Origin: Diospyros lotus
Lineage: Eukaryota; Streptophyta; Magnoliopsida; Ericales; Ebenaceae
Direction: 5' to 3'
Assembly: GCF_014633365.1 (NCBI RefSeq)
Contig: NC_068338.1
Coordinates: 21,338,616 to 21,402,615, forward strand
DNA length: 64,000 nt
Shown here: piece after piece, positions 5,958 through 59,766 of the stretch
Position numbering within the stretch: the first letter of the stretch is position 1
Layout of the letters: each line of letters begins with the position of its first letter
Notes under the pieces: model-generated
Seen by the model: only the letters and a program-made list of their open reading frames with translations
Database searches by the model: none
What the model was told of the DNA's origin: nothing
Position numbers and translations under genes: made by a program

Positions 5958-6084
5958 TTGAGCAGTTTCCCAAGAGTTTAAACTCATTCTTCCATACAAA
6001 AGATGGCACTGGAACAACAGAAAATCCTGAGGCAACTAACATACCAATCCAGAGTCCATATCCAAATCCCCCGCTCCACCATCC
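5958..6084 (-). CDS. MOC1: MOC1-type Holliday junction resolvase, exon 4
   Basis: Minus-strand exon of 127 nt, residues 192-233 plus one base of codon 234. It encodes the most conserved block of plant MOC1, a RuvC-fold resolvase of chloroplast nucleoids: [14 protein letters not shown], then [10 protein letters not shown] and a W-K-N-E-F-K-L tail. Acceptor: pyrimidine-rich tract ending TTTTGCAAG just right of 6084. Donor: CAA|GTAAGG, bases 5957 and below. The phase left over (one base) fits a following codon for Lys and then the D-D-S-R-R part of the family. That last exon should carry the two remaining catalytic acidic residues (K-K-D-H-G-R-A-E region). I looked for it in 1-5950 and did not find it, so it probably lies left of the window. 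In MOC1 the glycine-rich block helps recognise the DNA junction core (family knowledge). Confidence 0.9.
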
Positions 6085-6629
6085 CTTGCAAAAGAAAATA
6101 ATATTCAGTCTTCACTATGATGAACTTTTATGGCAAAACAGGGAGAAATAGTTATATGCTACAAATTTCAGAAGTCCAAAATAACAAATTTGAAAGAGCT
6201 AGAACCTTCTTTCATTAGAATATTAAAACAATAAAAAAACTTTCCTAAGATTGGAATGCCAGGGGAGTCCTTGAGCAGATTACTGCAATAGGAAAGCTAT
6301 AAACATCTTGCAAAGTATTTGCCAGAATTTAGGGCCTATTCTGATGTGCTAGTGTTCTTAATTTTAACTTCATGTTTCAAATATCTTTTGAGTATTGTTT
6401 CCAACATTCAAGAAAAAAGAAAAAGAAAAAGAAAGTACTTGAAGATTGCAGAAAATAGAATTTGAACCACAACATATTTCCACTAGGAAAATAATCTAGA
6501 AATAAAATTCAAGGAAGCAATCGTGAAAAGTGTAAACAACAGTTGTGCATAACAATAACTTTGTACAAAGTAGACATAACAGCATCCCACTTTAGTTGCA
6601 ATGTGAGACTTGATCTGGACTTCTATCAA
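6085..6629. other. Start of intron 3, nothing recognised
   Basis: AT-rich intron sequence between exon 4 and the LINE remnant. I see no coding signal or repeat beyond short A-rich runs. Confidence 0.4.
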
Positions 6630-6639
6630 ATCAGTGACT

Positions 6640-7400
6640 TTTGCCTTGTAGCTTGTGCATGTTGAATCAGTTAAGTGAATTTGTGTTTATAGATTTAGAA
6701 AAAGCTTATGAGAAAGTTCTTAGGAAGTCTTGTGAAGGGTCTCAAAGAAGAGAAGAGTTTGGATTGCTTATATGCAGGGTTATCAGAAACGTGTATCATA
6801 GAGAAAAAGTACGTGTCGTAAAATAGAGTAGATGTTGAGATTTTTCCAATTATAATTGGATTTACATCAAGGGTCTGCATTAAACTATTATTCAGATATC
6901 TTGGGTCTGCATCTGACTTTTTATGTGAGAGTAAAATTCTATTAAAGCTTAAAGGAAAATTTTATAAGATAGTTATAAGACCAACTTTGTTATATGACAC
7001 AATGTGAGGCAGTAAAACACCAACATGCAAAATATGAGCATAACATAAATGAAGATTTTCTAGTGAATGTGCTGCTATAAAAGGGAAGATAAAAATAGAA
7101 ATGCAGTTATTTGCAATAAGGTCAAAGTGGCTCCAATTAAAGATAAGATGTGCGAAACATGACTAAGATGGTTTAGTCATGTGAGAAAAAGACCAAAGGA
7201 GGCTGCAAGAAGAGTGGATGAAATGGAACAAATCCTTGGCAAAAAAAGGTAGAGGAAGACCAAGAAAAACTTGGTGAGAGACTCTTAGGTTTGGTATTAG
7301 TTATAAGAGCTAACCATAGATAGAAATGTTTGGCAAGCTAGAATTTATGTAGATGACCCCACATAGTAGGATTAAGGATTGATATGTTGTTGTCTTTAAT
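6640..7400 (+). mobile_element. LINE (non-LTR) 3' remnant
   Basis: A first piece reads F-V-F-I-D-L-E-K-A-Y-E-K-V, the reverse transcriptase motif A of plant RTE-like LINEs (FIDLEKAYDKV type). After several stops and a deletion, the typical C-terminal tail follows on the same strand: an L-K-G-K-F-Y-K-I-V-I-R-P-T-L-L-Y block near 6945-7000, an S-K-W-L-Q-L-K and H-V block, K-K-G-R-G-R-P-R-K-T-W near 7240-7275, and a final D-P-T near 7355. It ends in a TTGTTGTC-like stretch, as RTE 3' ends often do. Many nonsense changes show it is old. It sits antisense to the resolvase gene. Confidence 0.75.
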
Positions 7401-7707
7401 TTGCATGTAGTATTCCAATATTTATATATATATATATATTTATCTTTTTGTCATTTCGTCATTTGCATGTCTCTCTTGCTAAGTTGCATGCAGTAAATGA
7501 TTTTGCTATTTACGTTTTCATTCCTTGAAAAGGATGCATGTTGGAGCATTGTAAAACCATGATATGTCTTTTCACTTTGGAGTTAAGCTACAAATTATGT
7601 GTAGGTGCCAATTTAAGGTTGTCAGCTTACACACTAATATACTTTTGAATGTTGTTTGGCTATATAGATATGTAACATCCTGCACTTATATTTGAGGATT
7701 AACCCTG

Positions 7708-8162
7708 TGTTTGGCAGAGGGATCGGGTAGAGAATAGAATAGTACACAATGGAATGGGACATAGAGTAAAGGAAGTACTGTAAAGTTTGTTATCCTTCCA
7801 TTATTTGGGAAGATTGAAATGTAATTGAGCATAATATAACTTTGTTTGGATCAAGAATGGAAGGGGATGGAATGGTAAAAAAGAGAATAAAGTTACAATT
7901 ATACCCCTTTATTTTTAAAATAAGTAAGCAAGTTCTTAAATTTAATAATAAGGATAACGTAGAAGAACAATAAGAATATTAATAAATATTTTTCTTTCCC
8001 ACTCCTTCCCAAATTGGGGTGTAAGGAAAATAGGGGCACAAAAGGTTTCATGTACCCTCCCTCCCCTTCCATTCAATTATGAAAACCCCATCCAAACAAG
8101 GGAAATAGTCTCCCTTCCCCTCTTGTCCAGTCCCCTCTCTCTCTGTACCCTCTATCCAAACA
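7708..8162. mobile_element. MITE-like element with TGTTTGG termini
   Basis: The ends form an imperfect inverted repeat: TGTTTGGCAGAGGGAT at the left and the complement of CCCTCTATCCAAACA at the right, about 455 bp apart. The interior is AT-rich and non-coding, with several short mirrored pieces (ATTCCATT-like). The flanking TAA on both sides is a possible 3-bp target duplication, but the termini are too diverged to be sure of the superfamily. Confidence 0.5.
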
Positions 8163-8565
8163 TAATCTAAAGGAAGAACAAGGGTGAAGTGAGGGTCAAG
8201 AATTGACCTTCTAATTGATTGTAGCGGGAAATGATATGCAGGAATGAAGAGTCCACATTAGTCGACTTTTGATTGACTATCGCTAGCAAGTGAAAAACTC
8301 AGGTAAACAACTAACTTTGAACTCAATTTTGGACAATTAAATGAAGAAACAATTAGTTGCAGTTTGGATATGTTATAAGGCTTAATGAAGGGGTGGTTCT
8401 AATGGAATAAGAACTATTAATTTTTACAGAGATTTGTGAAAGTTGCATTAGTAACTTAATGAGGGTGATTTAGACTAATTAAACCCAAGATTATGCAACC
8501 ATTAGCTATAGGAGGATGCTTGGATAAGTGAGATCAGTTTAAAAGCTTCTAGAAGGAAGAGTGTT

Positions 8566-8738
8566 AAGTGTGAGAAGTTGAAGAAAGTAGCTTAAAGAAA
8601 GAAGGTCCTATCAGACATACAAGGAAAGGCTTGAATGAAGGATATTTTAATTAAGTGTGAGAAGTTGAAAGTAGCTTAAAGAGAGAAGGTCCTATCAGAC
8701 ATACAAGGAAAGGCTTGAATGAAGGATATTTTAATTAA
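8566..8738. repeat. Tandem duplication, about 87 bp, two copies
   Basis: 8566-8652 and 8653-8738 are near-identical direct copies beginning AAGTGTGAGAAGTTG and ending TTTTAATT. Differences are one short deletion and a base change, so the duplication is recent relative to its surroundings. Confidence 0.85.
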
Positions 8739-9000
8739 GGTAAGTGCATGGTTTTGGTTATTACATGATGGCATGATGTATGAAATGATTTTACAGCAAC
8801 CTAATGTGCAATGCGACATTCTATGCATGATATGTTGCATAATGTGGACATATTGCATAAAAGTGTTTTGAGTCCAGAAAGTGATGGTAAAAAAGCTTCA
8901 ATGCCATGAATGTGTAGTAATCATCCTAAAGCAATCATATAGAATGTTGGCTAATGTGAGCCTATAGCTTGGGCCAGACAATGATAATGATGCCAAGAGG
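8739..9000 (+). repeat. Diverged dispersed repeat, partner at 17211-17470
   Basis: This segment aligns, in opposite orientation, with 17211-17470. Shared blocks include AAGGTAAGT followed by ATGGTTTTGGTTATT-like sequence, CCTAATGTGC, GAATGTTGGCTAATGTGAGC and CTTGGGCCA. It is probably part of an old gypsy-type LTR. No ends can be set. Confidence 0.6.
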
Positions 9001-10276
9001 TGTAGTTCCGTGCATCTCTTTACAATTGAGACAAGGTACCATCCATGAGATGAGACACCCACCTAGGCGCATCATGCATGAATTATGCACCTCATGCGCG
9101 CATGACTCTTGTGCTAGCAAAACCCAAAAAGATTAAAACAAATTTATATCAAATCCTAAGAACATTAAAACAAAACCCCCATTAGCTATCCAACAGAACT
9201 GAGATATTGAAATGACAAAGGAGATTCAACTTCTGTTCTTATTCTTCATCAGTATATTTGACTATCAAACTTTTTAAGAATTTAACTTGTTGACACTTCA
9301 TTTTACTCTTCATCGGCAGATTCAACTATCAAAGGAGTTTCTGAAAGCCTTTAGCTTTATTTGTAATTGACGAATTTGCTTCTTGTCAATATCAAAGCAT
9401 ATTTGAGGAAAAATAACCACAACTTTTTGTGTCAAACACACACACATTCTCTCTCTCTCTCAAACACATGCATGTCTGCTCTCCACAAGGCATTATGTGG
9501 AGAGGATCCCATTGGGAACAAACTCATGGAACTTGGAATGTAATTAACCGTTGAATATAAATAAAAGAGAAAAACAAAAACTTTTTCTCTGTTTTTCCCT
9601 CCCAAGCCTTCACTTGTTATGTAAACTAAAATAGCACTAAGACAGCTAGTATAACGAGGTCAAACTAAAGAAGCAAAAGCAAAAAGCACATAATAGATCT
9701 TTCATTAATAGTGGAGCAAGGCATTATATTTGAGGCCCAAAATCAAATCTGATTAATCAATAAAGTAACCCAACGATGTGAAGCAACTTAGAAACTAAAT
9801 TTGGAAAGAAAATATGGTTATTATTGAAGTGTACAAGTATATAGTAAGGGGTATTATTGTAATTAGGGTAATTATACTCTTGTATATATACCTAGTCTAT
9901 ACATTTTAGAGATATACACATATTATTTTATTCCTCTACAGTTATATACGCATTCATCGACACAAGAATACTCCTGCAAACTCCATGTACTAAAAATTAA
10001 ATAAACCACAGTTAAGAAACTTATTATTCTGAAGGACAATAATATTGCTCATAAGGAAGAAAGAAAAATCATGTATCCCAGGAAATAGTTTCTGAATAAA
10101 GGAACAAAAATAATGCATATGATATGAAGGCCAATGCAAGGTTTGAAAGCATTGATCATAACAATAGTGATGACATTGACAAAAATTAAGCTTTGTGCAG
10201 TAGATATAACCCGTTGTACTATAAAGAAAAAAAGGAAGAAAGCATATTGTTTCTACTAATAAGTAACTCTGCAAAC
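9001..10276. other. Intron 3 remainder, no gene recognised
   Basis: AT-rich, with a CA then CT microsatellite at about 9437-9462. 9830-9985 contains a TTGTATATATACC box and resembles the promoter half of a small LTR, but without a second copy or target duplication this is only a suggestion. No exon-like reading was found. Confidence 0.35.
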
Positions 10277-10329
10277 CTGTTTACCATCTTGGGGATAAGG
10301 TAATGATTGCTCTATGTATGCAATGGTCC
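10277..10329 (-). CDS. MOC1: MOC1-type Holliday junction resolvase, exon 3
   Basis: Minus-strand exon of only 53 nt, completing Gly174 and encoding residues 175-191: T-I-A-Y-I-E-Q-S-L-P-Y-P-Q-D-G-K-Q. The A-Y-I-E-Q motif holds the second catalytic acidic residue of RuvC-type resolvases (Glu180 in this model). Acceptor: TTCATTCAG just right of 10329. Donor: CAG|GTTTGC. The entering phase (two bases) matches the one base left by exon 2, and the exit phase 0 matches exon 4. It is separated from exon 2 by about 21 kb and from exon 4 by about 4.2 kb. It is too short for ordinary ORF finding and would be easily missed. Confidence 0.9.
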
Positions 10330-12275: not shown

Positions 12276-12548
12276 TGTTGGAACGAGGATAAGAAGCTAT
12301 GGCCAAGATCAAGATAGAGATAGGTTGTTTTTATTCTTTTATCTTTTGTATCTATTTTGTGTTTTATCTTCTTATTGTATATTTAAATTGATGTAATCTA
12401 GTCCTAGATATAAGGTAAGTAATCTAGTCCTAAAATATAGGAATGTAATCTAGTCCTAAAATATAGGAGAATTCTTAGGAAACTTCTTGTATAAATTCTA
12501 TTATTGACATCAATAAAATAATTAAGGAATACCGCTTCCTTTCCCACA
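12276..12548 (+). repeat. 5' LTR of copia element C
   Basis: Starts TGTTGGAACGAGG and ends CCCACA. It is 26 bp longer than the 3' copy because a GTAATCTAGTCCTAAAATAT unit is duplicated. Confidence 0.92.
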
Positions 12549-12560
12549 TGGTATCAGAGC
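12549..12560 (+). other. Primer-binding site of copia element C
   Basis: TGGTATCAGAGC, matching initiator tRNA-Met, directly after the 5' LTR. Confidence 0.9.
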
Positions 12561-12766
12561 TATAGGCCGAGTATGATACATCGTAACCCTAGTGCCTTCA
12601 TCGCATAGCCTTTGATTTGATCCCTCTATTGGTCCTGCCTTCATTGCACTATTCTGGGCCACCCTTCTTTACACCTGACGTGCCTTTATTGCACCCACAA
12701 GCTTGTTGTTTCAAGAATTTCTAGTAACCGACAGCAGTTCCAGATTCCAGTCACTCTAAGATTGCA

Positions 12767-12812
12767 ATGGCAGAACTATCAAATGTAGCAAGTCCAAACC
12801 ATGCACGAGGGG
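12767..12812 (+). pseudogene. Gag start of copia element C, truncated
   Basis: An ATG 207 bases after the PBS begins M-A-E-L-S-N-V-A-S-P, then meets the inverted block near 12813. The open frame continues to 13042 only by chance through the opposite-strand RT. Confidence 0.55.
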
Positions 12813-14060
12813 ACTATTTGTGTCCATATAGGGCTTTCTTGAGTTTACAAACCCGAGTCTTCCCATCTCCTTCATGTGTAAAGCCTGGAGGGATTTCCAT
12901 AAAGACTTCTTCCTCTAAATCTCCATGTAAGAAGGCATTTTTGACATCGAATTGTTGCAATTTCCATCCAAATTTAGCTGCCAATGCTATTAGAATTCTT
13001 ACCGTAGTCATTTTTTCCATAGGTGCAAAAGTTTCTAGATAATCAATACCATAAGATTGAGTATAACCCTTGGCCACTAGGCGGGCCTTATACTTGTCAA
13101 GAGTTCCATTGACTTTGTATTTGACATTAAAAATCCACTTGCAACCCACTAGTTTGGTATCCTTTGATCTAGGAACTAATTCTCAGGTTTGCTTTTTCTT
13201 TAGGGCATCCATTTCTTCTAACATAGCCTTCTTCCAATTATGGTCTTTTACAGCTTCTTCTACCGATTTGGGAATAACAATTGCATCCAATGATGTTAGG
13301 AAGCTTTGATATTGAGCGGATACACGATGGTATGATAGATAAGAAGCTAATGGATGTTTGGTGCAAGTTCTAACACCTTTTCAAATGGCAATGGAAAGGT
13401 CCAAGTCCAAGGGTTCTGATTGGGGTTGAGATGTACTGGGGTTGGTGGCTGGGTCTTTACTTGGTGTAATTTCTAGGCTAGTATTCGGAGCCGATGATGG
13501 GCCTGGCTGCAGTTCTTCAATGGGCTGCCTTCTCTTGTACACATAGAGAGAAATCTTGTACCTTATAGGAGAATCGAGCCTCAAGTGAGGATGATTAGTT
13601 GGTAAGGGTTGAGGTGTCATAATAGGGCTGGAATCTTGGGAAGGATCCTAACCGGCTGCTCGTCTCGAGACTTGCATTTAGAAATTCCCAATCCAAATCT
13701 ACATGATTTGTATCTGCTGGCCTTGCTGGAATGGGAGCAAAATAGGGTTGAAATTCATTGAATGTGACATCTTTTGAAACATAGAACTTTCGAGTGTTTG
13801 GGTGGTAGCACTTATACTCTTTTTGTGTTGGAGAATATCCAAGGAAGATGCACTTAAGGGCCCTAGGGTCCAACTTGCCTCTATGGATTTTGAGTATGTG
13901 AACAAAACATACACATCCAAACACTCTTAAGAGTAGCTGAGTATGAAGATTAAAGTTTGGAAAAAATGAATTTAAAGATTGAAAAGGACTTTGACCATTG
14001 AGAACCCTAGATGGTACCCTATTAATGACATAAGTAGCAGTTAACACAGCTAAGATTTTC
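12813..14060 (-). pseudogene. Inverted integrase-RT block of copia element C
   Basis: Read on the minus strand from 14060 downward, this gives the integrase end (TATYVINRVPSRVLNGQ, then LDPRALKCIFLGYSPTQKEY), a linker, and the RT N-terminal half from G-C-K-W-I-F (about 13149) through ETFAPM and [11 protein letters not shown] to C-K-L-K-K-A-L-Y-G at about 12820. The RT then resumes on the plus strand at 14068. Order and polarity show that one contiguous segment was flipped inside the element. Several stops are present (near 13620 and in 13150-13380). Confidence 0.85.
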
Positions 14061-14067
14061 AAAGGCC

Positions 14068-15431
14068 ATGCTTTCTATGGGATACCACCAAAGCCAAGGA
14101 GACCAAACTCTATTTATCAAACATATAGGAGAAAAGGTAACAGTTTTGCTTGTTTATGTGGATGATATTGTGGTGATAGGGAATGACACAACTGAACAAG
14201 ACTGTCTCAAACAAAACTTAGCTTGTGAATTTGAAATCAAAGATCTCAGTCAATTGCGATATTTCTTAGGCATAGAAGTAGCACACTCAAAGGAAGGTAT
14301 TTTCTTATCTCAACGAAAATATATCTTGGATTTGCTTGATGAAACAGGGCTATTAGGGGGAAAAGGAGGAAAGATACCTATTGATCCCAATACAAAATTG
14401 CAAGCCAATAAAGGTGGACAAAGAGAGATTTCAACGCTTGGTAGGGCGATTAATATATCTGTCACATACTAGACCTGACATATCATTTGCTATCAGCCAA
14501 TTCATGCATGATCCTAATGAAGAACATATGATAGCAGTAAGGAAGATTCTATGTTATCTTAAACCTACACCTGGAAAAGGGATCTTATTCACTCCAAGGA
14601 CAGACTTAAAGCTTCAAGGATATACAGATGCGGATTATGGTGGCTCACTGGTTGACTGAAGATCTACAATCGGGTACTGTGTATTTCTAGGAGAAAATTG
14701 ATAGATTATTGAAGATAATCTATCTGGGTTTACTGAATTTGGAGAGAATTACAACTGAAAAAGTAAACAAATGAAATGAAAGTGGACTTCCGAGATGTCT
14801 ACACTCTCCTGAATTCCTCCTACTCAAAAAGATGCCTTCCCCCTCTACTATCTTTCCTACTTAACTGTTATTCCAGCCATCCTCCTCTAACCGATTATGT
14901 TATCCGCACATGCCACCAGCTTGCTCTACCCATAATACCCTTTAACCACTTTTGTTGCTTTCTCCCTTACTCGTATCACTATTCTGCTCCTACTTATTCT
15001 GTCGTTGATAACAGAATTGTATGGGTTTTCTATCAAAAATTTGATCTCCTGGAGATAAAAAGCAAGGGGTGGTGGCTAGACCCGGTGTTGAGGCAGAATT
15101 TAAAGCTATGGCTCTCGGTGTATGTGAGCTCTTATGGGTAAAGATTATCCTAGAAGATTTGAAAATTCCGATACAAAGGCCTATTGAACTCTTGGGAGAT
15201 AATCAATCAGCTATAATTATAGCCTACAATCCGGTGCAACCTGAAAAAACCAAGCATATCGAAATTGATAGACATTTCCTAAAGGAAAAATTAGACAGGG
15301 GTCTAATGAAGATTTCATATATTCCTTCCAACCATCAAGTGGCTGATGTTCTTACAAAAGGTTTGCCAAATATCCAATTTGAAGTCTTGATCAATAAGCT
15401 GGGCATGATTGATATCTACTCCCCAACTTGA
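14068..15431 (+). pseudogene. RT second half and RNase H of copia element C
   Basis: The plus-strand frame starts M-L-S-M-G-Y-H-Q-S-Q-G-D-Q and retains the catalytic box L-V-Y-V-D-D-I-V (14149-14172). It continues through FLGIEVAHSKEGIFLSQRKY. A small frame change near 14380-14400 leads to the RLVGRLIYLSHTRPDISFA block. RNase H starts near 14590 (G-Y-T-D-A-D-Y-G), is interrupted by the solo LTR at 14699-15035, and resumes to 15431 with A-E-F-K-A-M-A and I-E-I-D-R-H-F. A stop follows the solo LTR near 15060. Confidence 0.85.
14699..15035. mobile_element. Solo LTR inside copia element C
   Basis: 337 bp starting TGATAG and ending CTATCA, flanked by identical 5-bp duplications AAAAT (14694-14698 and 15036-15040). 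Removing it with one duplication leaves RNase H in a continuous frame at this point, which confirms the boundaries. No internal region remains, so it is a solo LTR or very small element. Its family is not otherwise seen in the window. Confidence 0.85.
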
Positions 15432-15438
15432 GGGGGAA
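15430..15438 (+). other. Polypurine tract of copia element C
   Basis: GAGGGGGAA sits directly before the 3' LTR and would prime plus-strand DNA synthesis. Confidence 0.85.
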
Positions 15439-15685
15439 TGTTGGAACAAGGATAAGAAGCTTCGGCCAAGATCAAGATAGAGATAGGTTGTTTTCATTCT
15501 TTTATCTTTTGTATCTATTTTGTGTTTTATCTTCTTATTGTATATTTAAATTGATATAATCTAGTCCTAGATATAAGGTAAGTAATCTAATCCTAAAATA
15601 TAGGAGAATTCTTAGGAAACTTCTTGTATAAATTCTATTATTGACATCAATAAAATAATTAAGGAATACTGCTTCCTTTTCCACA
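15439..15685 (+). repeat. 3' LTR of copia element C
   Basis: 247 bp, TGTTGGAACAAGG to TTCCACA, about 3% different from the 5' LTR outside the 26-bp duplication. The ATAAT duplication follows. Confidence 0.92.
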
Positions 15686-20641: not shown

Positions 20642-20650
20642 TTCCCCCTC
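20642..20650 (-). other. Polypurine tract of copia element E
   Basis: Minus-strand GAGGGGGAA immediately before the 3' LTR, identical in form to the tract of copia C. Confidence 0.85.
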
Positions 20651-21277: not shown

Positions 21278-21282
21278 AGAAC

Positions 21283-49160: not shown

Positions 49161-49201
49161 ATTAGGTATCAAAGCATCATCTTGGGCGATCGGAGTAGGA
49201 G

Positions 49202-50395
49202 ATGGCAGATGGAACCAAGATGAAGCAAATGGAGTCGCAGCTCCACCAAGTGTCGACGACGATAGTGGAAATGCAGAGTAGGATGGAGGTGTTGGAGAAT
49301 TCTGTGGATCGAAGAATTGAAGGAGAGATGAATGTGTGGCGCAAGGAAAGCAGATCGCAGACGACGAGGCTGGAGGATCAAATAAGGGAGCAGGGTCAGG
49401 CCCTCAGAGATCAGATGCAACAGTTTGTTCTGATGCTTACTCACTAGACTCAGGTAAGGATTTCACTTGAATTTCCCCTGAGAAAGATCTGAGCCAATCT
49501 TACATGAACAGGGAGATAACTTTCGATCGGAGGGATCGGTGGAGTTGGAGGTTGAACGACAGGTGATGGAGGAGAATGTAGGAGTCAGGAGGCAAGGTAA
49601 TGGAACTGAATCGCATCAAACCAGTCTCCCTATGACTAAGATGGAGATACCTCTATTTGATGGCCAAAACCCGAGGTGGTGGGTGAGGCATTGTGAAAGG
49701 GTGTTCAACTTGTGCAATGTGGCTGAAACCCAGAAGGTGACTCTCGCAGCCGCTTATCTAAATGACGCGAGAGATGCATGGTATCAAGGCTGGAGTGGGG
49801 TGAAGGAAGAGTACACCTAGGGGGGAATTTGTAGAAGGGTTGTGTGACCAATTTGGTGAGAAGGGAATGCTGGATGTGGTTAAAGAGTTTAATAAGATGA
49901 GACAAGGGAGATTGATGCAAGCCTATCAACAAAGGTTTGAAGAGTTGAAGGCCCTCATGTTGCTCTCAAATCCTACCCTCACAGAGGGGTACTTCGTGTC
50001 AAGCTTCATTAGCAACTTGAACGAAGAAATTCGTCCCACAGTCAAGATGTTTCAACCCAAGACTGTCCAACAAGTCATTGAGTGTGCCAGACTTCAGGAG
50101 TTGATGGTGGAGGCACTGGTTAAGAAGCAAAAGGGTGTCAATAAAGGGTGGCAGATGGTGCCCTTGCAACAAAGTAGCAAAGGATGGGGTAAGAAAGGAA
50201 GAACCATGGGCCAAGGTAACAAGGGGTCAGCAACCCTACCAACAGCCCCTCAACCATTTCCAGGAAACTTGGCAGAGCAGAGGCGGTTAGCAGGTCCTCT
50301 GCTTCAGGTGTGGAGACAAATACACACCAGGCCACCAAAGTAAAAGGTAGTTGTTGCTGCTAGAGGGGACAAAAGAAAAAGTGGGAGAACAAAAG
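49202..50395 (+). pseudogene. Gag of gypsy element J
   Basis: ATG at 49202 (M-A-D-G-T-K-M-K-Q), a coiled-coil-like start to 49447, then broken frames. The core is clear: N-P-R-W-W-V-R-H-C-E-R-V-F at 49668-49706, F-N-K-M-R-Q-G-R-L and S-F-I-S-N-L-N-E-E. The nucleocapsid box C-F-R-C-G-D-K-Y-T-P-G-H-Q is read in another frame near 50300-50335, where its last Cys is Ser. Several stops and shifts. Confidence 0.83.
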
Positions 50396-52538
50396 GACGA
50401 ATACAATCAGGAGGAGGATGGAGAAGAGGAGAAGGTGGAGATCTCCTTGCATGCTCTAAGGGGAGAGGTTACCAATAAAATTATCAAGGTGGAGGGAAAG
50501 GCAAGAGATAGACGTTTGATGATTTTGATCGATAGCGGAAGCACTCACGACTTCCTAGACGAGGGGATAGCTAAGAGATTGAAATGCAGCCTAACGGGGA
50601 CTCAACCTTTGTCAATCACCGTAGCTAACGACCAACAAATTTTGTGTAGATCAACATGTGTTGGGTTCTGTTGGCAAATGCAAGGGGAAGACTTTGAGGC
50701 TGACCTATGCCTATTGAAGTTGGGGGGATGTGATATGGTCCTAGGGGTTGATTGGATGAGGGAAGTCAGCCCCATCTGTTTTGACTTTAACAAGATAGAG
50801 GTGACATTCGAGAAGAGGGCTATCAACCTCAAACCCAATGCCGAGCCAATTAACAACCGCTCATATAGATACCGCCCAAAACAAAAGGCTGAAATTGGAC
50901 ACATGATCAAAGACATGCTAAATACCTCTATTATACAGCCAAGTACCAGCCCTTATGCCTCTCCCTTGCTATTAGTCAAAAAGAAAGATAGTAGTTGGTA
51001 GTTTTGTATTGATTATCGCCAACTCAATTTCCTAACCATAAAGAATAAATTCCCTATACCCATTATTGAAGATTTGTTAGATGAATTGCATGGAGCTAAA
51101 GTTTTTTCTAAGCTTGATCTTAGATCTGGATATCATCAAATTCGAATGCACCCCAATGATATCCACAAAACTGCCTTTAGAACCCACTAAGGGCATTATA
51201 AATTCTTTGTAATTCCCTTTGGATTGACCAACGCTCCAGCAACTTTTCAACCCCTTATGAACCAAATATTTGAACCTTACCTATGCCAATTTATTTTGGT
51301 ATTCTTTGATGACATTCTTGTATACAACCCTACCTTTGCCAAACACCTAGAGCACTTAAGGACTAGTCTACAAGTCCTCCGATTTAATAAGTTGTATATT
51401 AAGAAGGTGGCAGCCATGACTGCCTAGCCAAGACTTGCCAATGTGAAAGCCCTATAGGTGTTCTTGGGCCTTACAAGATATTATCGCAGATTTGTCAAAG
51501 ACTATGGCATTATCAGTAGGCCATTGACAGAGTTACTGAAGAAAGAGGGGTTTCAGTGGAATGAGAGGATAGAGGAAGCTTTTGGGAGGTTAAAGGCTTC
51601 CATGAGTGAGGTACCTATGCTGAGCTTACCCGATTTTAATTAGCCTTTTGTACTAGAAATAGATGCAAGTGATGGTGGGGTGGGGGCAGTCTTGATGCAA
51701 GGAGGAAGGCCTTTAGCCTTTATTAGCCAGACATTGGCCCCTAAACACTTGCGTCTCAATGTCTATGATAAGGAGCTTCTGGTTGTTCTAATAGCAGTTG
51801 AAAAATGGCAACACTACCTTGAAGGAGGGAGGTTCATTATAAGGACGGATCACAAGAGCCTTAAGTTTCTGTTAAAACAGAAACTTCACACTCACCTTCA
51901 GATGAAAGGCATGTCAAAGTTAATGGGGCTTGACTACGTCATTCAATACCGAAGAGGCCATGAGAACAAAGCAATCAATGCTTTCTCTCGTTGTGTGGAA
52001 TAAAGGGCCTCAACTGCTATCACTGCCCTTACTCCTAATTGGTTCAGGGAAGTAACAGCAAGCTACACAAAAGGAGAGTGGATCAAGGAGCTGATAGAGC
52101 AAATGGTCCTAGACCCAGATAGCAAACTAGGCTATACCTTAAGGAATGGGCTACTGAGATATAAGGAAAGAATGGTAATTGGTGAGGATAAGGCTCTCAG
52201 AAAAAGGTATTGAAGGCGTTACATGATTCCCCTGTGGGTGGCCATTCTAAAATACAGAATACTTACAGCAAGATTAAACAACTGTTCTTTTGGCTAAGGT
52301 TGAGAAGGGAAGTGGCGGAGTATGTGAAGGGTTGTGATACTTACAACTGGTGTAAGCATGAAAACATTCACCCCCCAGGGTTGTTCAACCTCTACCCATT
52401 CCTAACCAAGCATGGACCCACATTAGCATGGATTTTGTAGAAGGATTGCCAAAGTCAGAGGGTATGGATTGTGTACTAGTGATGGTTGATCGTTTGACCA
52501 AATATGCCCACTTCTTGGGCATATCCCAACCCTTTCAC
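50396..52538 (+). pseudogene. Protease, RT, RNase H, integrase start of gypsy J
   Basis: Protease L-I-D-S-G-S-T-H-D-F near 50526-50555 and V-L-G-V-D-W-M. RT: Y-R-Y-R-P-K-Q-K-A-E-I, S-P-Y-A-S-P-L-L-L-V-K-K-K-D with a stop at 50999, [12 protein letters not shown], and F-F-D-D near 51303. A deletion of roughly 70-80 bp follows L-Y-I-K-K at about 51408. RNase H: L-E-I-D-A-S-D (51655), D-K-E-L-L, T-D-H-K-S-L-K. Integrase: H-D-S-P...H, C-D-T-Y-N-W-C and M-D-F-V-E-G-L-P, ending in H-P-F-type sequence where the MITE sits. About eight stops or shifts. Confidence 0.85.
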
Positions 52539-52703
52539 CAGGGGCAGATGCAGAGGAGGGTCTGGGGCTGGGATGTGCCTGGGCTTTTATATATTTATAT
52601 ATATATATATATATTACTATTTAGGTTATATATATATTTTACTATTTAGCTGGGGTTAGCATGGGCAGAAGCCCGTGCCAGCCCCCCCCTACATCCGCCC
52701 CTG
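52539..52703. mobile_element. hAT-type MITE in gypsy J integrase
   Basis: 165 bp with inverted ends CAGGGGCAGATGCAGAGGAG and the complement of TACATCCGCCCCTG. Flanks CCTTTCAC (52531-52538) and CCCTTCAC (52704-52711) form an 8-bp target duplication with one difference, as expected for hAT. The interior is an AT repeat and TATTTAG motifs. Confidence 0.88.
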
Positions 52704-52711
52704 CCCTTCAC

Positions 52712-53073
52712 TACACAGGAGGTGGCAAGGGCTTTCTTTGACCAGGTGGGCAAACTTCGTGGGTTGCCTTAGGTGATTGTTTCAAATAGGGACAAAGTCT
52801 TCACAAGCCTCCTTTGGAAAGAGCTCATGAAATCCCTAAGGGCACAGCTACACATGTCCTCCTCCTATCACTCGGAGACAAATGGACACACTAAAAGGAC
52901 TAATCAATGCCTTGAGACGTACTTAAGGTGTGTGAGCCTAGTGCATCTTACCGGGTGGCACAAGTGGCTCTCCCTAGCTCAATGGTGGTACAACACCACC
53001 CCACACTCTTCTCTAAAGATGACACCGTTTGAAGCATTATATGGGTACAAACCTCCTTTCTTACCACTAAAAG
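52712..53073 (+). pseudogene. Integrase core of gypsy J before gypsy K
   Basis: T-Q-E-V-A-R-A-F-F, G-L-P then a stop (52770), V-S-N-R-D-K-V-F (second Asp region), [16 protein letters not shown], and W-Y-N-T-T-P-H-S-S. The frame is then cut by gypsy K at GAAGC and resumes at 58341. Confidence 0.85.
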
Positions 53074-53078
53074 GAAGC

Positions 53079-53458
53079 TGTTAGGCCGCCGATATTGCAA
53101 ACATACCAAAGGCGCAACAAGAATCAAGGGAATATTGGGAACACCGCGAGTGGACGTAACGGCCAGCATGTGCGCCAGGGGTAGAGTAGGCATTTGGCTG
53201 GGTTGTGTAACAAACCAGCAGGTGCATGAGCATAACCCAAATACGGTTATGGTGGAGGGATAACAACCTATAAAAAGGAGGTTAGAAGGGAGAGAAGGTG
53301 TGAAGAATTTAGAGTTTTCTGGGAAGGAGAGTTCTGGGCCTCTCGAATGCCCAGTTTGTTGCTTGTTTTCCATTGTTTTCCTTGTAATTGAGAGTTGCTA
53401 TACAGCCGAAACTCACCTAATTCACTGAAATTCCTACCTATTGTGTTGAATCTCATCA
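53079..53458 (+). repeat. 5' LTR of gypsy element K
   Basis: TGTTAGGCCGCC to TCTCATCA. TATAAAAAGG box at 53269-53278. Confidence 0.95.
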
Positions 53459-53461
53459 ATT

Positions 53462-53473
53462 TGGTATCAGAGC
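53462..53473 (+). other. Primer-binding site of gypsy element K
   Basis: TGGTATCAGAGC, three bases after the LTR; matches initiator tRNA-Met. Confidence 0.9.
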
Positions 53474-53487
53474 ATTCATCAATCACC

Positions 53488-54687
53488 ATGGTAAACCTAA
53501 CTGAGAGGGTGGGGGACCTGGAGGAGAAGGTCGACACGATGAGGGGAGAGATTCAAACCATAAACCGGAACGTAGCAGAAATGCTCGAACAGTTCGCCAT
53601 CCTGCGAACAAGGTGGGACAAACAGGAACGGGAGAGGAAGGCTAAGGCCCATGGGAGCGGATGGCCAACGGAGTTTACCCCAAATTCCAAAGTGACCCCG
53701 GGGTGCGGCATGAACCAAGGAATGGAAGGAGGCATGAGCGCTGCATGGCGACAGGAAGGGAGAGGTCGACGACTGGAAATGCCAACCTTCGCGGGAGACA
53801 ACCCGAACGATTGGATTTTCAGGGCGAAGAGGTACTTCTCGATCAACCAGCTGTCCGATGATGAGAAGATCGAGTCCACAGCATTGTGCTTCGAGGTAGG
53901 GGCCCTCGCTTGGTTCCAGTGGGAGTCTAGGCGCAGGAGGATCCGCAGTTGGGAAGGGCTCAAGCAGGGAATTCTCAACCGATTTCGTCCAACTCAAGAA
54001 GGGTCACTAGAGGAGAGGTTCCTGGCTCTACGACAAGAGAGTACTGTCAAGGATTATCGGCTGATGTTCGAGACTTTGGCTGTGCCAGTGTCGGATGTCT
54101 CCGAGGCGTTCTTGGAGGGCCATTTTATCAACGGCCTTAAGCCAGAAATCAAGGCTGAGATCAGGGTACTGCAACCTAGGGGGTTGGATCGAATCATGAT
54201 GATGGCACAGTGTATCGAGGATAAAAATGCAGCCATGCTTAGCTGCAGTAGGGCATTCGGACCAACGAGGAGTATTTTCCGTACCCACTCTACAACCAAT
54301 GTTGTTCGGCCCCCTCCCATACAATCAAGAAGCCCGACTCCTCATTCGAGAGTCTTTGGTCAGGTGAGCAACAAGCTGCCAGTGGCTGGTAGTGGCAGCA
54401 ATACCCCTTTTAAACGACTCAGTGAGGCCGAGTGGAAAGCCAAAAGGGAGAAGGGATTATGCTTCCGTTGTTATGAGAAATATTTAGTTGGCCACAGGTG
54501 CAAGAACAAGAAGCTGCACGTTATGATGATTTATGATGAAGAAAAGGAAGAGGAAGGAGTTGAGGGGGAAACAGGAGAAGAAGAGGAAGTGGGGCAAGGC
54601 AGTGAGGTCATTGAACTCTCCATGAATTCAGTGGTGGGGTTGACAACACCGCAAACAATGAAGCTGCAAGGGGATATAGAAGGGTAA
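53488..54687 (+). CDS. Gag of gypsy element K
   Basis: ATG at 53488, 14 bases after the PBS; 399 codons to a TAA at 54685-54687. The N-terminus is a heptad-rich coiled coil (E-R-V-G-D-L-E-E-K-V). The capsid domain holds F-A-G-D-N-P-N-D-W-I-F-R-A-K-R-Y-F (about residues 100-116), A-L-A-W-F-Q-W, and H-F-I-N-G-L-K-P. The nucleocapsid box C-F-R-C-Y-E-K-Y-L-V-G-H-R-C follows near 54460-54505, then an acidic tail. It would assemble the particle and package element RNA in the cytoplasm. The open frame is intact. In this family gag and pol usually form one polyprotein, so the terminal TAA is either a nonsense mutation or a readthrough site. Confidence 0.88.
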   Translation: MVNLTERVGDLEEKVDTMRGEIQTINRNVAEMLEQFAILRTRWDKQERERKAKAHGSGWPTEFTPNSKVTPGCGMNQGMEGGMSAAWRQEGRGRRLEMPTFAGDNPNDWIFRAKRYFSINQLSDDEKIESTALCFEVGALAWFQWESRRRRIRSWEGLKQGILNRFRPTQEGSLEERFLALRQESTVKDYRLMFETLAVPVSDVSEAFLEGHFINGLKPEIKAEIRVLQPRGLDRIMMMAQCIEDKNAAMLSCSRAFGPTRSIFRTHSTTNVVRPPPIQSRSPTPHSRVFGQVSNKLPVAGSGSNTPFKRLSEAEWKAKREKGLCFRCYEKYLVGHRCKNKKLHVMMIYDEEKEEEGVEGETGEEEEVGQGSEVIELSMNSVVGLTTPQTMKLQGDIEG

Positions 54688-57600
54688 CCAGTGGTAGTAC
54701 TTATCGATGGAGGGGCGACGCACAACTTTATAGCGGCAGAACTGGTGCAACGGTTGGGGTTGCCACGAACAGATACTACCAGATATGGGGTGATTATGGG
54801 GATAGGAATGGCGATGCAAGGAGCCGGCATTTGCAAGGGGGTGAAATTGCACCCACAAAACTTACAAATCGTGGAGGATTTTCTGCCCTTAGAGTTGGGT
54901 AGTTCTGATGTAATCCTTGGGATGAAGTGGCTGGCAGCAATGGGGAAGATGAGAGTGGATTGGAAGGCTTTAACTATGAAGTTTCAAGTTGAGGGATTGG
55001 CCGTGACCTTGCAAGGAGATCCTAGCTTAAGCAAAAGCTTGGTATCCTTCAAGGCTATGATGAAGGCCTTCGAGGAGAATGGAGAAGGAATGTTGTTGGA
55101 GCTGGGAACAATGGCAGCGCAATACAATGACAGCCAAGTAGAGGTTCCACCGTTCCTAAAAGAGGTGTTAGCTGAGTTTGAGGAGGTGTTCACAACACCT
55201 GAAGGGCTGCCTCCTTCCAGAAAAAAGGATCATGCAATCAACCTACTACCAAGCACGGTACCAGTTAGTGTTAGGCCCTATCGTTATCCTTACCTCCAGA
55301 AAAACGAGATTGAGAAGATAGTAGGAGAGATGCTAGCAGCGGGGATTATACAACCTAGTTCCAGCCCTTTTTCTAGTCCGGTCCTGCTTGTCAAGAAGAA
55401 GGATGCAGGGTGGTGTTTTTGTGTGGACTATAGGGCTTTGATTAAGGTGACCGTGCCCGACAAGTTTCCAATTCCCGTGAGCGAAGAGTTGTTGGATGAG
55501 CTTCATGGGGCCAAGGTCTTTTCCAAACTTGACCTTAAATCTGGGTATCATCAAATTCGCGTTAGGGCTGAGGATATTCCAAAGATAGCCTTCCGGACGC
55601 ATGAAGGCCATTACGAGTTCCTTGTAATGCCCTTCGGATTGACTAACGCGCTAGCCACGTTTCAGACACTGATGAATGACATTTTCAGGGAGCAGATGAG
55701 GCGTTTTGTGTTAGTCTTTTTTGATGACATATTGGTTTTCAGCAAGGATTTTGAACAGCATGCACAACACTTATGTTGTGTTCTGGAGGTGCTGGCAGCT
55801 AATCAACTATTTGCGAATAGGAAGAAGTGTTTGTTTGGACAACTGGAAATTGAGTACTTAGGCCACATTATATCACAACAAGGGGTTTCAGCTGATTGTA
55901 GCAAGATAAAAGCTATGTTAGATTGGCTCACTCCTACCACATTGAAGGAATTGCGTGGTTTCCTTGGTCTCACGGGATATTATAGGCGTTTTGTTAAGGA
56001 TTATGGCAGGTTAGCATAGCCTCTCACGGAGCGACTACGAAAGAACAATTTGTTTTGGGATGAGGCAACTGAGCAAGCTTTCCAAAGGCTCAAGGCTGCC
56101 ATGGTATCACTGCCTGTTTTGGCTTTGTCGAATTTTGACAAGCCATTTGTGGTGGAGACGGATGCGTCTGGACAAGATATTGGGGTAATTTTAATGCAAG
56201 ATCATAGACCTATTGCTTATTTCAGTCAGGCCTTCAATCAGTTGGGAAGGCGGAAATCAGTTTATGAGAGAGAGTTGATGGCCATTGTATTTGCGGTGCA
56301 AAAGTGGCGGCATTATTTGTTGGGACAGAAGTTTGTGGTCAGGACCGACCAAAAGAGCCTCAAATTTTTGATGGAGCAAAGGTTGGTAAGCCCAGAATAT
56401 CAGAAGTGGATGATTAAGTTAATGGAATTTCAGTTCGAAATTCAATATAGGCCTGGACTGGAAAACAAGGCTGCGGATGGATTGTCCCGCATCAGCCACT
56501 CTGCTGCCCTTCTAGCCTTAACCGTCCCTCAGGTTCTCCAACTTGATCAGCTGGTTCGAGAAGTAGAAGAAAATCAGTGGCTGCAAGGTGTGGTCAAGGA
56601 TCTCCAGCTTGATCCTACTTCCAGACCCCATTTCCAGTTGGTGGACAACCACCTCCTCTACAAGGGTAGGTTGTACCTACCGAAGGGCTCTTCTCTCATT
56701 CCATTGCTTTTACATGAGGGACATGATGGGAATGTGGGAGGACACTCGGGATTCTTGAAAACCTACAAGAGAATTGCCGCCAATGTATACTGGCCAAGTA
56801 TGAAGAGGGACATCCACAAGTATGTGAGTCATTGTGCTGTCTGCCAGCAAAACAAGGGGCTAACCCTAAAGCCGGGAGGGCTCCTGCAACCCCTTCCCCT
56901 ATCCCAAACCAAATTTGGGACGACATTGCTATGGACTTTATCGAAGGCTTACCAAGGTCAGGCAAAATGGACTCGATTTTGGTGGTAGTGGATAGACTCA
57001 GTAAGTATGGGCATTTTATCGGGCTTAAACACCCTTTTACAGCTAGAGAGGTGGCAGGAATCTTCATTAAGGAAGTTGTGAGGCTTCATGGTTTACCACG
57101 GTCAATTGTATCCGATAGGGACAAGATCTTCATGAGCAAATTTTGGGAGGAATTGTTCCGTCTCCAAGGCACCAAGCTCCACCGCAGCACAGCTTACCAT
57201 CCACAAACGGATGGTCAAACAAAGGTGTTGAATAGGACATTGGAGACATACCTTCGCTGTTTTGCTTCCTCTAAACCTAAAGCTTGGTTTGTGTGGCTGC
57301 CTTAGGCTGAACTTTGGTACAACACTTCGTACCACACAGCCTCGAGAATTACACCGTTCCAGGCAGTTTATGGGCGAGAACCACCACCAATCTTGAGGGT
57401 TGAAAGGGGATCCACTCCTGTTTCAATAGTGGAGCAACAACTGGTGGAAAGAGCTCAAGCAGTAATGAAGAAGGGGGTTGATATGAAAAGAAGAGCAGTG
57501 AAGTTTATGGTTGGGGACTTAGTTTACTTGAAACTAAGACCCTATCGTAGGAAGACATTGGCTGGACGTTCCAATGAGAAGTTGGCTCCTAGGTTCTATG

Positions 57601-58061
57601 GTCCATTTGAAGTTGAAAAGGAAATTGGACCTGTCGCTTACAAGTTAAAGCTGCCTTCACACTGCAGCATTCACCCAGTCTTCCATGTGTCCCAGCTACG
57701 AGAAGCCAAGGGTGCGTTGCAAGCCAATGTGGAGATTCCTAACCAGTTGAGTGCAGATTTGGAGATGTTGGTTGAACCGGAGGCAGTGCTAGGGGTCAAG
57801 CTAGGAACAAGAAGTAATTTACGGGGATTGGAAGTCTTACTTCAATGGAAGGGGTTACCTCCTTTGGAAGCCACTTGGGAGCCTTATAGCCTAATTCAGC
57901 AGCAATTTCCCTCTTTTCACCTTGAGGACAAGGTGAAAGTTGGGGAGGGGAGTAATGTTAGGCCGCTGATATTGCAAACATACCAAAGGCGCAACAAGAA
58001 TCAAGGGAATATTGGGAACACCACGAGTGGGCGTAACGGCCAGCATGTGCGCCAGGGGTAG
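54688..58061 (+). pseudogene. Pol of gypsy element K with chromodomain
   Basis: In the gag frame after the TAA: protease [13 protein letters not shown] (the usual D-S-G reads D-G-G), then RT with [13 protein letters not shown] and F-F-D-D (55719-55730). A TAG at 56017-56019 is followed by RNase H (V-V-E-T-D-A-S-G, R-T-D-Q-K-S-L-K) and the integrase zinc region (H-E-G-H...H, C-A-V-C). A frame change lies near 56890-56905. The core continues with [16 protein letters not shown] and Y-H-P-Q-T-D-G-Q-T; a TAG follows at 57303-57305. The C-terminus has H-P-V-F-H-V-S-Q-L and a chromodomain (V-L-L-Q-W-K-G-L-P-P-L-E-A-T-W-E). The frame runs into the 3' LTR to 58061. Confidence 0.92.
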
Positions 58062-58335
58062 AGTAGGCATTTGGCTAGGTTGTGTAACAAACCAGCAGGT
58101 GCATGAGCATAACCCAAATACGGTTATGGTGGAGGGATAACAACCTATAAAAAGGAGGTTAGAAGGGAGAGAAGGTGTGAAGAATTTAGAGTTTTCTGGG
58201 GAGGAGAGTTCTGGGCCTCTCGAATGCCCAGTTTGTTGCTTGTTTTCCATTGTTTTCCTTGTAATTGAGAGTTGCTATATAGCCGAAACTCACCTAATTC
58301 ACTGGAATTCCTACCTATTGTGTTGAATCTCATCA
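57956..58335 (+). repeat. 3' LTR of gypsy element K
   Basis: 380 bp, about 98% identical to the 5' LTR; preceded by the purine tract TTGGGGAGGGGAGTAA. Confidence 0.95.
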
Positions 58336-58340
58336 GAAGC

Positions 58341-58892
58341 CATAATCAGGTAGCTACTGTGGACAATTACTTGGTTCAAATGCAGCAAATGTTGCATACC
58401 CTGAAGGAGTTGTCCAATGCCCAAAATCGAATGAAACAATATGTAAACAGAAAGAGGAGTGAAAGGTTCTTCTTAGTAGGAGATAAGGTGTATCTAAAAT
58501 TGAGGCAAGCCCAACTAAAGAGTATATCCCCTAAGTCAATTACTAAGTCGAGTCCCAAATACTATGGCCCTTATGAAGTGATAGCCAAGGTGGGGCAGAT
58601 GGCCTACGGACTCGAACTTCCGAAGGGGTCTCACATACACCCCATGTTCCATGTGTCACTCCTTAAACGCTCCCTAGGCAACAATCCAATCAGTTCTATC
58701 CTACCCTTAGCAATACAACCAACTCAACAAGAGACGAAATCTATAGCTATAGCGGACAGGAGAATCATCTACAAGCACGCGGCACCTATCACTGAGGTGT
58801 TAGTTCACTGGTCTAATCTCCACCCCGAAAACAACACCTAGGAGTACCTCCCCAACCTGTTGAAGCAGTTTCCTAAGGCAGCAGGGCTCTAG
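58341..58892 (+). pseudogene. Integrase end of gypsy J after gypsy K
   Basis: Resumes the integrase C-terminal region: V-G-D-K-V-Y-L-K-L-R, K-Y-Y-G-P-Y-E-V, H-P-M-F-H-V-S-L-L-K, and V-L-V-H-W-S-N-L-H-P-E-N-N-T, then a stop where Trp is expected before E-Y-L-P. It mirrors the end of gypsy I. Confidence 0.85.
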
Positions 58893-58937
58893 TGATTCAC
58901 ATGAGGACAAGTAATGTTCCTAGCGCGCGCGCACGCC

Positions 58938-58952
58938 GGGGGGGGGGGGGAA
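58938..58952 (+). other. Polypurine tract of gypsy element J, expanded G run
   Basis: An uninterrupted run of about 13 G bases then AAT precedes the 3' LTR. A CG-alternating stretch (GCGCGCGCGCACGCC) lies just upstream. Confidence 0.75.
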
Positions 58953-58953
58953 T

Positions 58954-59136
58954 TGTCACGGGACTACAATGCAAATAAGAAGATTACTAAGGTAGAAAGA
59001 TAGAGGGTACTATTGTAATATGGATTAGATTGGTAGTTATCTAATTCAAATGTAATCCAAATGTTGGCGACAAGGCTTGGTAAATATAAACCAACCTTCG
59101 CGGCCGGGAGAGGCATCCATTGGGAATTCAATTGAT

Positions 59137-59176
<40 letters not shown>

Positions 59177-59268
59177 GTTCTTCCTTCTTTCCTTCTGACC
59201 TATCAGTTCCCGAGCAATTCTTACTGAATTGCGAGAGAACTCTCCCCTGTCAGAATCCTATTCTGACA
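58954..59268 (+). repeat. 3' LTR of gypsy element J
   Basis: 315 bp, TGTCACGGGAC to TATTCTGACA. It contains an expanded CT microsatellite at 59141-59173 that the 5' LTR lacks. Confidence 0.92.
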
Positions 59269-59352
59269 CACTCATAACTTCCACACCAATATGATAAACA
59301 CTCATTATATTGACACCATTACACATATATGTGTAGAGAGAAGCCGTCAAAC

Positions 59353-59766
59353 CTGAGCAGAACAGCCGTCGGAACCGTCGGTTTTCAATAGGGCCAAAGC
59401 GCCAGAAACATCAGGATCGATTCCAATTATCCACGGGGAGTCGGAATTGCGGCTGCAGACATGCAGAACGTCTTGGCCATTGAGCTTGTCCGGCAAGGGG
59501 CAAGAGAGAGAAGCGAGCCAGTTCTCCTTCAGCTGAGCGTCCGAAACCTTGGCCTTGGCTCTTCCGTTACTCTCCAAGGCGACACTCTTTCTGCGACCCT
59601 TCCGTTCTTTGGCAGTCGTCGGTGCCAAATTTGGGGAAGACACGACACAGAAACGTCTAATGGTAGGGCAACGGAAGCCGAGTTTTGATCCAAACTTGGA
59701 GGGGATTGAGTTCATGGAGTAGGGGTTTGCAGGCTGCAATGGAGGCTGGATTTGAAGGGTCTCCAT
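59353..59766 (-). CDS. MOC1: MOC1-type Holliday junction resolvase, exon 1
   Basis: Minus-strand first coding exon, 414 nt, residues 1-138. ATG at 59766 (M-E-T-L-Q-I-Q-P-P-L) is the first in-frame ATG; the upstream TTG codons are leader. Residues 1 to about 60 are rich in Ser, Pro, Arg and Lys with few acidic residues, as in a plastid transit peptide. The family segment L-K-E-N-W-L-A-S-L-S-C-P-L-P lies at 79-92. The RuvC-fold start W-I-I-G-I-D-P-D-V-S-G-A-L-A holds the first catalytic Asp (Asp117). The exon ends S-A-Q with donor CAG|GTTTGA. The predicted enzyme cuts four-way DNA junctions in chloroplast nucleoids (family knowledge). The family name is secure; full function depends on the last exon, which is not in the window. 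Confidence 0.95.

Follow-up and report, generated by a model that had tools for sequence, protein, structure and literature searches.

We analyzed a stretch of 64,000 nucleotides on contig NC_068338.1 of the date plum, Diospyros lotus (hereafter, the window), and the sequence to its left. This chromosomal locus is very probably a single intact nuclear MOC1 gene with six exons and retrotransposon-inflated introns, and its product is predicted from sequence to be a RuvC-like chloroplast Holliday-junction resolvase. Exons and introns are listed below in window coordinates, with negative positions lying to the left of the window.

Exon 1: 59353 to 59766, minus strand, 414 bp, ATG at 59766, residues 1-138 including D117 and D119, located by tblastn with six foreign homologues
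Intron 1: 31555 to 59352, minus strand, 27,798 bp, GT-AG
Exon 2: 31449 to 31554, minus strand, 106 bp
Intron 2: 10330 to 31448, minus strand, 21,119 bp, GT-AG
Exon 3: 10277 to 10329, minus strand, 53 bp, carries E180
Intron 3: 6085 to 10276, minus strand, 4,192 bp
Exon 4: 5953 to 6084, minus strand, 132 bp, donor AAG/GTGTGC
Intron 4: -15427 to 5952 (in-window part 1 to 5952), minus strand, 21,380 bp
Exon 5: -15500 to -15428, minus strand, 73 bp, left of the window (locus L003)
Intron 5: between exons 5 and 6, minus strand, 2,602 bp, splits the segment K-K-D-H-G/R-A-E
Exon 6: -18194 to -18103, minus strand, 92 bp including the stop, carries E263, left of the window (locus L003)

Translation of the six exons, joined across GT-AG introns, exactly reproduces a public protein (P0001, "Holliday junction resolvase MOC1, chloroplastic [Diospyros lotus]") of 289 aa, which is a normal length. 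The coding sequence of 870 bp makes up only 1.1% of the 78-kb gene, spans 77,961 bp from ATG to stop, and is free of stops and frameshifts. All intron borders are GT-AG, and the exons form a complete, non-overlapping set that is colinear on one strand and in phase. The original prediction had described four minus-strand MOC1 exons in this region; their identity, phases, and positions hold, except for the end of exon 4, which had been placed at 5958. This donor was rejected as 5 bp off, because only the donor after 5953 yields P0001 in frame. The lengths given for introns 1–3 (27.8, 21.1, and 4.2 kb) are correct, and intron 4, put at over 5.9 kb, indeed exceeds this bound at its full length. 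Giant introns are present as proposed; the suggested span of "more than 53 kb" falls short of the actual one, and MOC1 introns fill 92% of the window, in agreement with the view that nearly all of it is intron. The search for a last exon to the left of base 1 revealed two exons, located 15.4-18.2 kb away, which share the expected K-K-D-H-G-R-A-E segment between them. The expectation that gene finders would call only an exon-1 gene did not hold up: the exact full-length protein is public, and an exon-1-only Diospyros protein is absent among 24 matches. The 233-aa protein of the first four exons matched no Pfam model.

Sequence comparisons with proteins from outside Diospyros support each of the exons. 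Six such homologues, used as independent tblastn queries, match all six exons (36/36 query-exon pairs, E 7e-34 to 0.002), and their best match off the exons in 124 kb has an E of 0.018. Shuffled queries (n = 120) reached an E as low as 0.008, so that the weakest single query-exon pair, P0097 against exon 6 with an E of 0.002, comes close to this noise level. The original prediction had named a complete MOC1 gene elsewhere as the competing outcome; no second MOC1 was found in the 630-Mb assembly by protein search or by DNA search with exon 1. The protein search gave five matches from eight scored candidates, all at this locus and corresponding to exons 1, 2, 4, 5, and 6, with exon 3 being too short for that search, and the exon 1 sequence matches the assembly once at the DNA level. 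MOC1 thus appears to be single copy in D. lotus.

The encoded protein is homologous over residues 109-279 to the RuvC-like domain of NtMOC1, the best of nine matching PDB sequences (E 7.7e-79), and its acidic tetrad D117, D119, E180, and E263 aligns with D116, D118, E175, and E258 of NtMOC1. The spliced product was modelled with AlphaFold2 (mean pLDDT 69.6, pTM 0.63), and nearly all of the first 71 residues score below 50; the N-terminus is unconserved and disordered, as for a putative transit peptide. Foldseek comparison with this model returned NtMOC1 and ZmMOC1 chains as the top 12 matches (best E 7.6e-22), followed by RuvC; the modelled fold is that of an RNase H-like resolvase. The active-site residues are spread over exon 1 (D117, D119), exon 3 (E180), and exon 6 (E263), so that an active enzyme requires crossing all introns 1-5, and a stop or skip after exon 4 would remove E263.

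The introns consist largely of retrotransposons. LTR-delimited elements account for 53,111 of 77,091 intron bp (69%), or 36,517 bp (47%) when only elements with target-site duplications (TSDs) are counted; no LTR-delimited element was detected in intron 3. The individual elements are as follows.

Element A: about -14806 to 5800 (in-window 1 to 5800), outer LTR element in intron 4, LTR identity 86%
Element B: -12338 to -7209, young copia nested in A, left of the window
Element C: -4692 to -135, young copia nested in A, left of the window
Element D: 12276 to 15685, plus strand (from the primer-binding site), short copia in intron 2, TSD ATAAT, LTR identity 96.8%
Element E: 20373 to 27860, minus strand (the gene's strand), copia in intron 2, TSD AGTTT, LTR identity 94.2%
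Element F: 36650 to 47799 (ends approximate), minus strand, outer LTR element in intron 1, LTR identity 92.8%
Element G: 37618 to 43092, plus strand, Ty3/gypsy nested in F, TSD CTAAC, LTR identity 93.4%, 5' end CA for TG
Element H: 48813 to 59268, plus strand, outer Ty3/gypsy in intron 1, TSD CACTC, LTR identity 87.0%
Element I: 53079 to 58335, plus strand, Ty3/gypsy with chromodomain nested in H, TSD GAAGC, LTR identity 98.2%

As predicted, these retrotransposons are nested, with three outer elements (A, F, and H) containing four inner ones (B and C in A, G in F, I in H). Among the ten LTR pairs, six combine TG..CA ends with an exact 5-bp TSD, and a seventh has a TSD and one altered end; TSDs of A and F were looked for and not found, and the ends of both are approximate. 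Copia-type integrase/RT fragments lie on the plus strand inside A (2228-4305), and D contains reverse-transcriptase pieces on both strands. F was assigned to the minus strand on the basis of a gag-like frame with a zinc knuckle (46001-46426), and the right end of H lies 84 bp from the exon-1 donor. Outer LTR pairs are more diverged than nested ones, with K2P values of 0.160 for A against 0.018 and 0.017 for B and C, and of 0.146 for H against 0.019 for I; the values for F (0.076) and the nested G (0.071) leave their ages not clearly different. No host gene nested in the introns was found among stop-to-stop frames of at least 100 aa (77/82 frames scanned against Pfam), a scan that short-exon genes escape. 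The scanned frames match 21 Pfam families, 18 of which are of retroelement type. A Ribosomal_L36 match (24.0 bits, below the 26.1 cut-off) was taken as chance. One frame upstream of MOC1 matches MULE and a related family.

Three other readings of the locus were considered. It is very unlikely that the gene is dying or dead, with insertions that have already ended productive transcription behind a frame that still looks intact. The young insertions B, C, and I (LTR K2P 0.017-0.019) mean that such a loss could be too recent to mark the coding sequence, but the older insertions A and H (K2P about 0.15) have been tolerated for so long that damage would be expected by now if the gene were dead. Instead, the frame, the GT-AG borders, the active-site residues, and the normal length are all retained, and the own-genome protein search found no other MOC1. 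Less probable still is an assembly artefact, in which misplaced repeat-rich sequence separates the exons of one ordinary gene. The locus is rich in repeats; however, the 124 kb examined contain zero N, the exons follow one another in order on a single strand, matching TSDs flank seven insertions on either side, which misjoins would not produce, and nested LTRs are less diverged than outer ones. Transposons can carry gene pieces, but that they captured exon-like fragments here while the true MOC1 lies at another locus is scarcely credible, given exons that are complete, non-overlapping, and in order and phase, the single exon 1 DNA match in 630 Mb, and a protein without a match outside the locus.

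A single intact gene thus remains the preferred reading, in which ordinary MOC1 introns were enlarged by successive Copia and Ty3/gypsy insertions on both strands, some of them into earlier insertions. The whole 78 kb would be transcribed, with the polymerase reading through TE-filled introns that are presumably methylated heterochromatin; in other plants, such read-through is helped by an IBM2-type complex preventing premature polyadenylation. The TE-filled introns, including those of 20-28 kb, would then be spliced out, and the protein would act in the chloroplast, where it would resolve the junctions formed when plastid DNA recombines. Differences between paired LTRs comprise 179 transitions and 47 transversions, and transitions are more frequent at CG/CHG (71/309) than at CHH sites (107/1,022; odds ratio 2.55, p 1e-7), a comparison confined to LTR pairs. 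CpG depletion as a sign of TE-specific methylation was dropped, because CpG values are lower still in introns without LTR elements (0.19-0.28 vs 0.32-0.43), and the depletion is not element-specific.

A bolder and improbable extension is that MOC1 dose is now regulated by the giant heterochromatic introns. If transcripts were polyadenylated prematurely within intron 4, or if exon 5 were skipped, the outcome might be a stable protein with D117, D119, and E180 but without E263, a nuclease-dead partner in a dimeric enzyme. For exon-5 skipping, the predicted product has 241 aa. The level of plastid recombination in Diospyros would then depend on how frequently 21 kb of retrotransposons are traversed by polymerase and spliceosome. 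If true, this would suggest, together with MSH1, that introns of this kind have arisen repeatedly in single-copy organelle-DNA maintenance genes.

A non-exhaustive literature search found no paper on the structure of the D. lotus MOC1 gene. The protein itself is already public, and plant genes stretched by intronic retrotransposons are already known (MSH1, Chloranthus, maize PIKK genes). Knowledge of MOC1 itself is unchanged by this gene structure. NtMOC1 and ZmMOC1 belong to the same family by sequence, fold, and active-site residues, and the date-plum protein shows no difference from them, the difference being the 78-kb gene span. What the locus illustrates is that an apparent intergenic transposon graveyard can be the interior of one essential-type gene, and it offers a compact test case for transcription and splicing through nested heterochromatic retrotransposons in plants.

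The maize TTT/PIKK proteins are much longer than date-plum MOC1. According to PMC5681926, their genes are single-copy and carry intronic LTR insertions that are methylated at CG/CHG, yet are still expressed and spliced, with ZmATM spanning about 131 kb; expression and methylation were measured there, whereas those of date-plum MOC1 are predicted. In Chloranthus spicatus (PMC8626473), long introns derive mainly from LTR elements, and 876/2,184 orthologues exceed 20 kb. This lengthening is genome-wide, in contrast to D. oleifera, which has a mean gene length of 6.8 kb and a mean intron of 1.1 kb (PMC6917749); by this measure, date-plum MOC1 is about 11 times the mean gene length of its genus-mate. 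The plant organelle-genome maintenance gene MSH1 is described in PMC10487979 as mostly singleton and inflated by TE-filled introns, exceeding 50 kb in 34 species, with a longest gene of 805,861 bp and a longest intron of 101,025 bp. On that account, MSH1 resembles date-plum MOC1 in organelle-DNA maintenance, single-copy tendency, and TE-inflated introns, but has about 1,100 residues and many more introns, compared with 289 residues and five introns. With a length above 20 kb and introns composed mostly of LTR elements, date-plum MOC1 fits among the TE-inflated long genes of plants.

The gene drawn out across this stretch encodes MOC1, a chloroplast Holliday junction resolvase, and lies on contig C1 (54,509,687 bases; window C1:21338616-21402615) of the 630,139,270-base assembly of Diospyros lotus, the date plum (Ebenaceae, Ericales). 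A protein search with the 233 residues of the original prediction yielded 437 proteins with E <= 0.001 among 688 candidates (best 120 listed). The best match, P0001, has 289 aa, is 100% identical across the whole query and carries the NCBI name 'Holliday junction resolvase MOC1, chloroplastic [Diospyros lotus]'; the D. lotus MOC1 protein is already public as a protein record. The four exons in the window stand as originally described, apart from the end of exon 4, which is at 5953 rather than 5958. For the rest of the gene, expected left of base 1 (negative coordinates), a further 50 kb was searched, and two more exons are present there, with the K-K-D-H-G/R-A-E region at the intron-5 junction. 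At the exon-4/-5/-6 borders, a single combination among the nearby GT/AG choices gives the exact P0001 translation.

59766-59353, minus strand, MOC1 exon 1 (414 bp)
31554-31449, minus strand, exon 2 (106 bp)
10329-10277, minus strand, exon 3 (53 bp)
6084-5953, minus strand, exon 4 (132 bp)
-15428 to -15500, minus strand, exon 5 (73 bp), located by P0001 match
-18103 to -18194, minus strand, exon 6 (92 bp, stop codon included), located by P0001 match

The exons total 870 bp and introns 1-5 (27,798, 21,119, 4,192, 21,380 and 2,602 bp) 77,091 bp, giving a span of 77,961 bp from ATG to stop, of which 1.1% is coding; introns occupy about 92% of the window. A CT/GA microsatellite (59805-59785) lies immediately upstream of the ATG, and a frame with a MULE transposase domain is on the plus strand at 61977-62294, roughly 2 kb ahead of the start.

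Because P0001 derives from the same genome, six non-Diospyros homologues served as queries for a chance test. They matched the exons in 36/36 query-exon pairs (E 7e-34 to 0.002); their best non-exon matches in 124 kb ranged from E 0.018 to 2.9, and 120 shuffled-query controls reached no E below 0.008. The weakest exons were exon 3 (E 3e-6 best, 2e-4 worst) and exon 6 (2e-7 to 0.002). As DNA, exon 1 has one match in the whole genome. The whole protein gave five matches with E <= 0.001 among eight scored candidates, namely exons 1, 2, 4, 5 and 6 of this locus, exon 3 being below the detectable size. Neither search found a second MOC1 locus, so that a complete MOC1 elsewhere, the alternative raised originally, is without support in this assembly. 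Gene finders had been expected to call exon 1 only; this did not hold, as full-length P0001 is public and the 24 proteins found with the exon-1 frame (best by E-value 46% identical) include no exon-1-only Diospyros entry. The original observation was correct and careful, and the gene is real.

All nine PDB sequence matches are tobacco or maize MOC1 (best E 7.7e-79). The reported NtMOC1 active site, D116, D118, E175 and E258 (PMC7078210), aligns with D117 and D119 (exon 1), E180 (exon 3) and E263 (exon 6) of the D. lotus protein; among 36 chosen sequences the first three are invariant and E263 nearly so (90% or more). An AlphaFold2 model from the same sequences reached a mean pLDDT of 69.6 and a pTM of 0.63, with low values chiefly over the first 71 residues. 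In a Foldseek comparison with the PDB, the best 12 matches of this predicted structure were MOC1 chains (top E 7.6e-22); RuvC from bacteria and phages came next.

In 11 of the best 120 homologues listed (437 in all; P0001 included), similarity breaks off short of residue 265. Six of them break at 235-239, adjoining the intron-4 junction, four at the intron-5 junction (259-260) and one at 252. Four that break at 235-239 (P0030, P0072, P0073 and P0120, from Vigna, Juglans and Momordica) share a KEG.RLY tail, which would fit a skipped exon 5 and a shifted reading frame. The final glutamate of the active site would be missing from a protein of this kind; a D. lotus product with that skip would have 241 aa (exons 5-6 region, L003:1806-4572, in a stretch fetched left of the window). 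The predicted proteins P0002 and P0003 (Camellia) and P0012 (Rhododendron) have additional residues precisely where intron 5 would interrupt the sequence (KKDH...RAE), which probably reflect a mis-annotated intron. Given these breaks and extra residues, introns 4 and 5 appear to occupy the same positions in other eudicots.

Ten direct-repeat pairs were tested as LTR pairs, nine intronic (elements A-I) and one, J, downstream of MOC1. TG..CA ends with exact 5-bp target-site duplications delimit B, C, D, E, H and I (6/10 pairs); G has a duplication, but its 5' end is CA instead of TG, and none was found for A, F or J. Copia domains (RVT_2, copia gag) occur in introns 2 and 4, in frames within and between elements, and mainly Ty3/gypsy domains (Ty3_capsid, RVT_1, Tf2-1 SH3, chromo) in intron 1.

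-45485 to -42363 (fetched stretch L006), pair J, 95.7% identical direct repeats without a convincing target-site duplication
35665-36039, copia-type fragment in intron 1

The elements are nested, A containing B and C, F containing G, and H containing I. K2P distances between paired LTRs are 0.160 (A), 0.146 (H), 0.076 (F), 0.071 (G), 0.060 (E), 0.033 (D), 0.019 (I), 0.018 (B) and 0.017 (C). At the usual plant substitution rates of 7e-9 or 1.3e-8 per site per year, which are not Diospyros-specific, A and H inserted about 6-11 My ago and B, C and I about 0.6-1.3 My ago; F and G (0.076 vs 0.071) are indistinguishable in age. The LTR of element I has at least 41 genome matches, its own two included (40/313 candidates scored), and therefore belongs to a dispersed family. 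LTR-delimited DNA makes up 53,111 of 77,091 intron bp (69%), or 36,517 bp (47%) counting TSD-bearing elements only, with A and F as wholes left out; only 773 bp of intron 4 lie beyond A, and no LTR-delimited element was found in introns 3 and 5. Since LTR retrotransposons are reported to form 55-59% of the D. lotus genome (PMC11524226), the MOC1 introns are about as retrotransposon-rich as the genome.

A second CT/GA microsatellite (59160-59128), just within intron 1, lies inside the right-hand LTR of H. The reverse transcriptase of D is split between RVT_2 6-124 on the minus strand (12817-13182) and RVT_2 135-242 on the plus strand (14038-14469), with SH3 on minus (13598-14074) and the primer-binding site on plus, which looks like an internal inversion (12549-14469).

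Differences between paired LTRs comprise 179 transitions and 47 transversions. Transition sites account for 31/112 CG, 40/197 CHG and 107/1,022 CHH cytosines (CG plus CHG vs CHH, odds ratio 2.55, p 1e-7, for non-independent sites in LTR pairs only), a bias consistent with earlier cytosine methylation in these elements. By itself it would be a weak indication, the more so as the intron portions that lack LTR elements show the stronger CpG depletion.

By analogy with other plants, the intronic elements of MOC1 would form heterochromatin, and an IBM2-type protein would block premature polyadenylation within the introns, as described at heterochromatic intronic transposable elements in both Arabidopsis and rice (PMC7145194). 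Good expression and splicing are reported for maize genes whose introns contain methylated retrotransposons (PMC5681926). In Chloranthus, expression is reported to drop once introns exceed 40 kb (PMC8626473), a limit above the longest MOC1 intron (27.8 kb). D. lotus MOC1 is a striking, yet precedented case of a known kind: it spans about 11 times the 6.8-kb average gene reported for D. oleifera (PMC6917749), and MSH1 is reported to exceed 50 kb in 34 species (PMC10487979).
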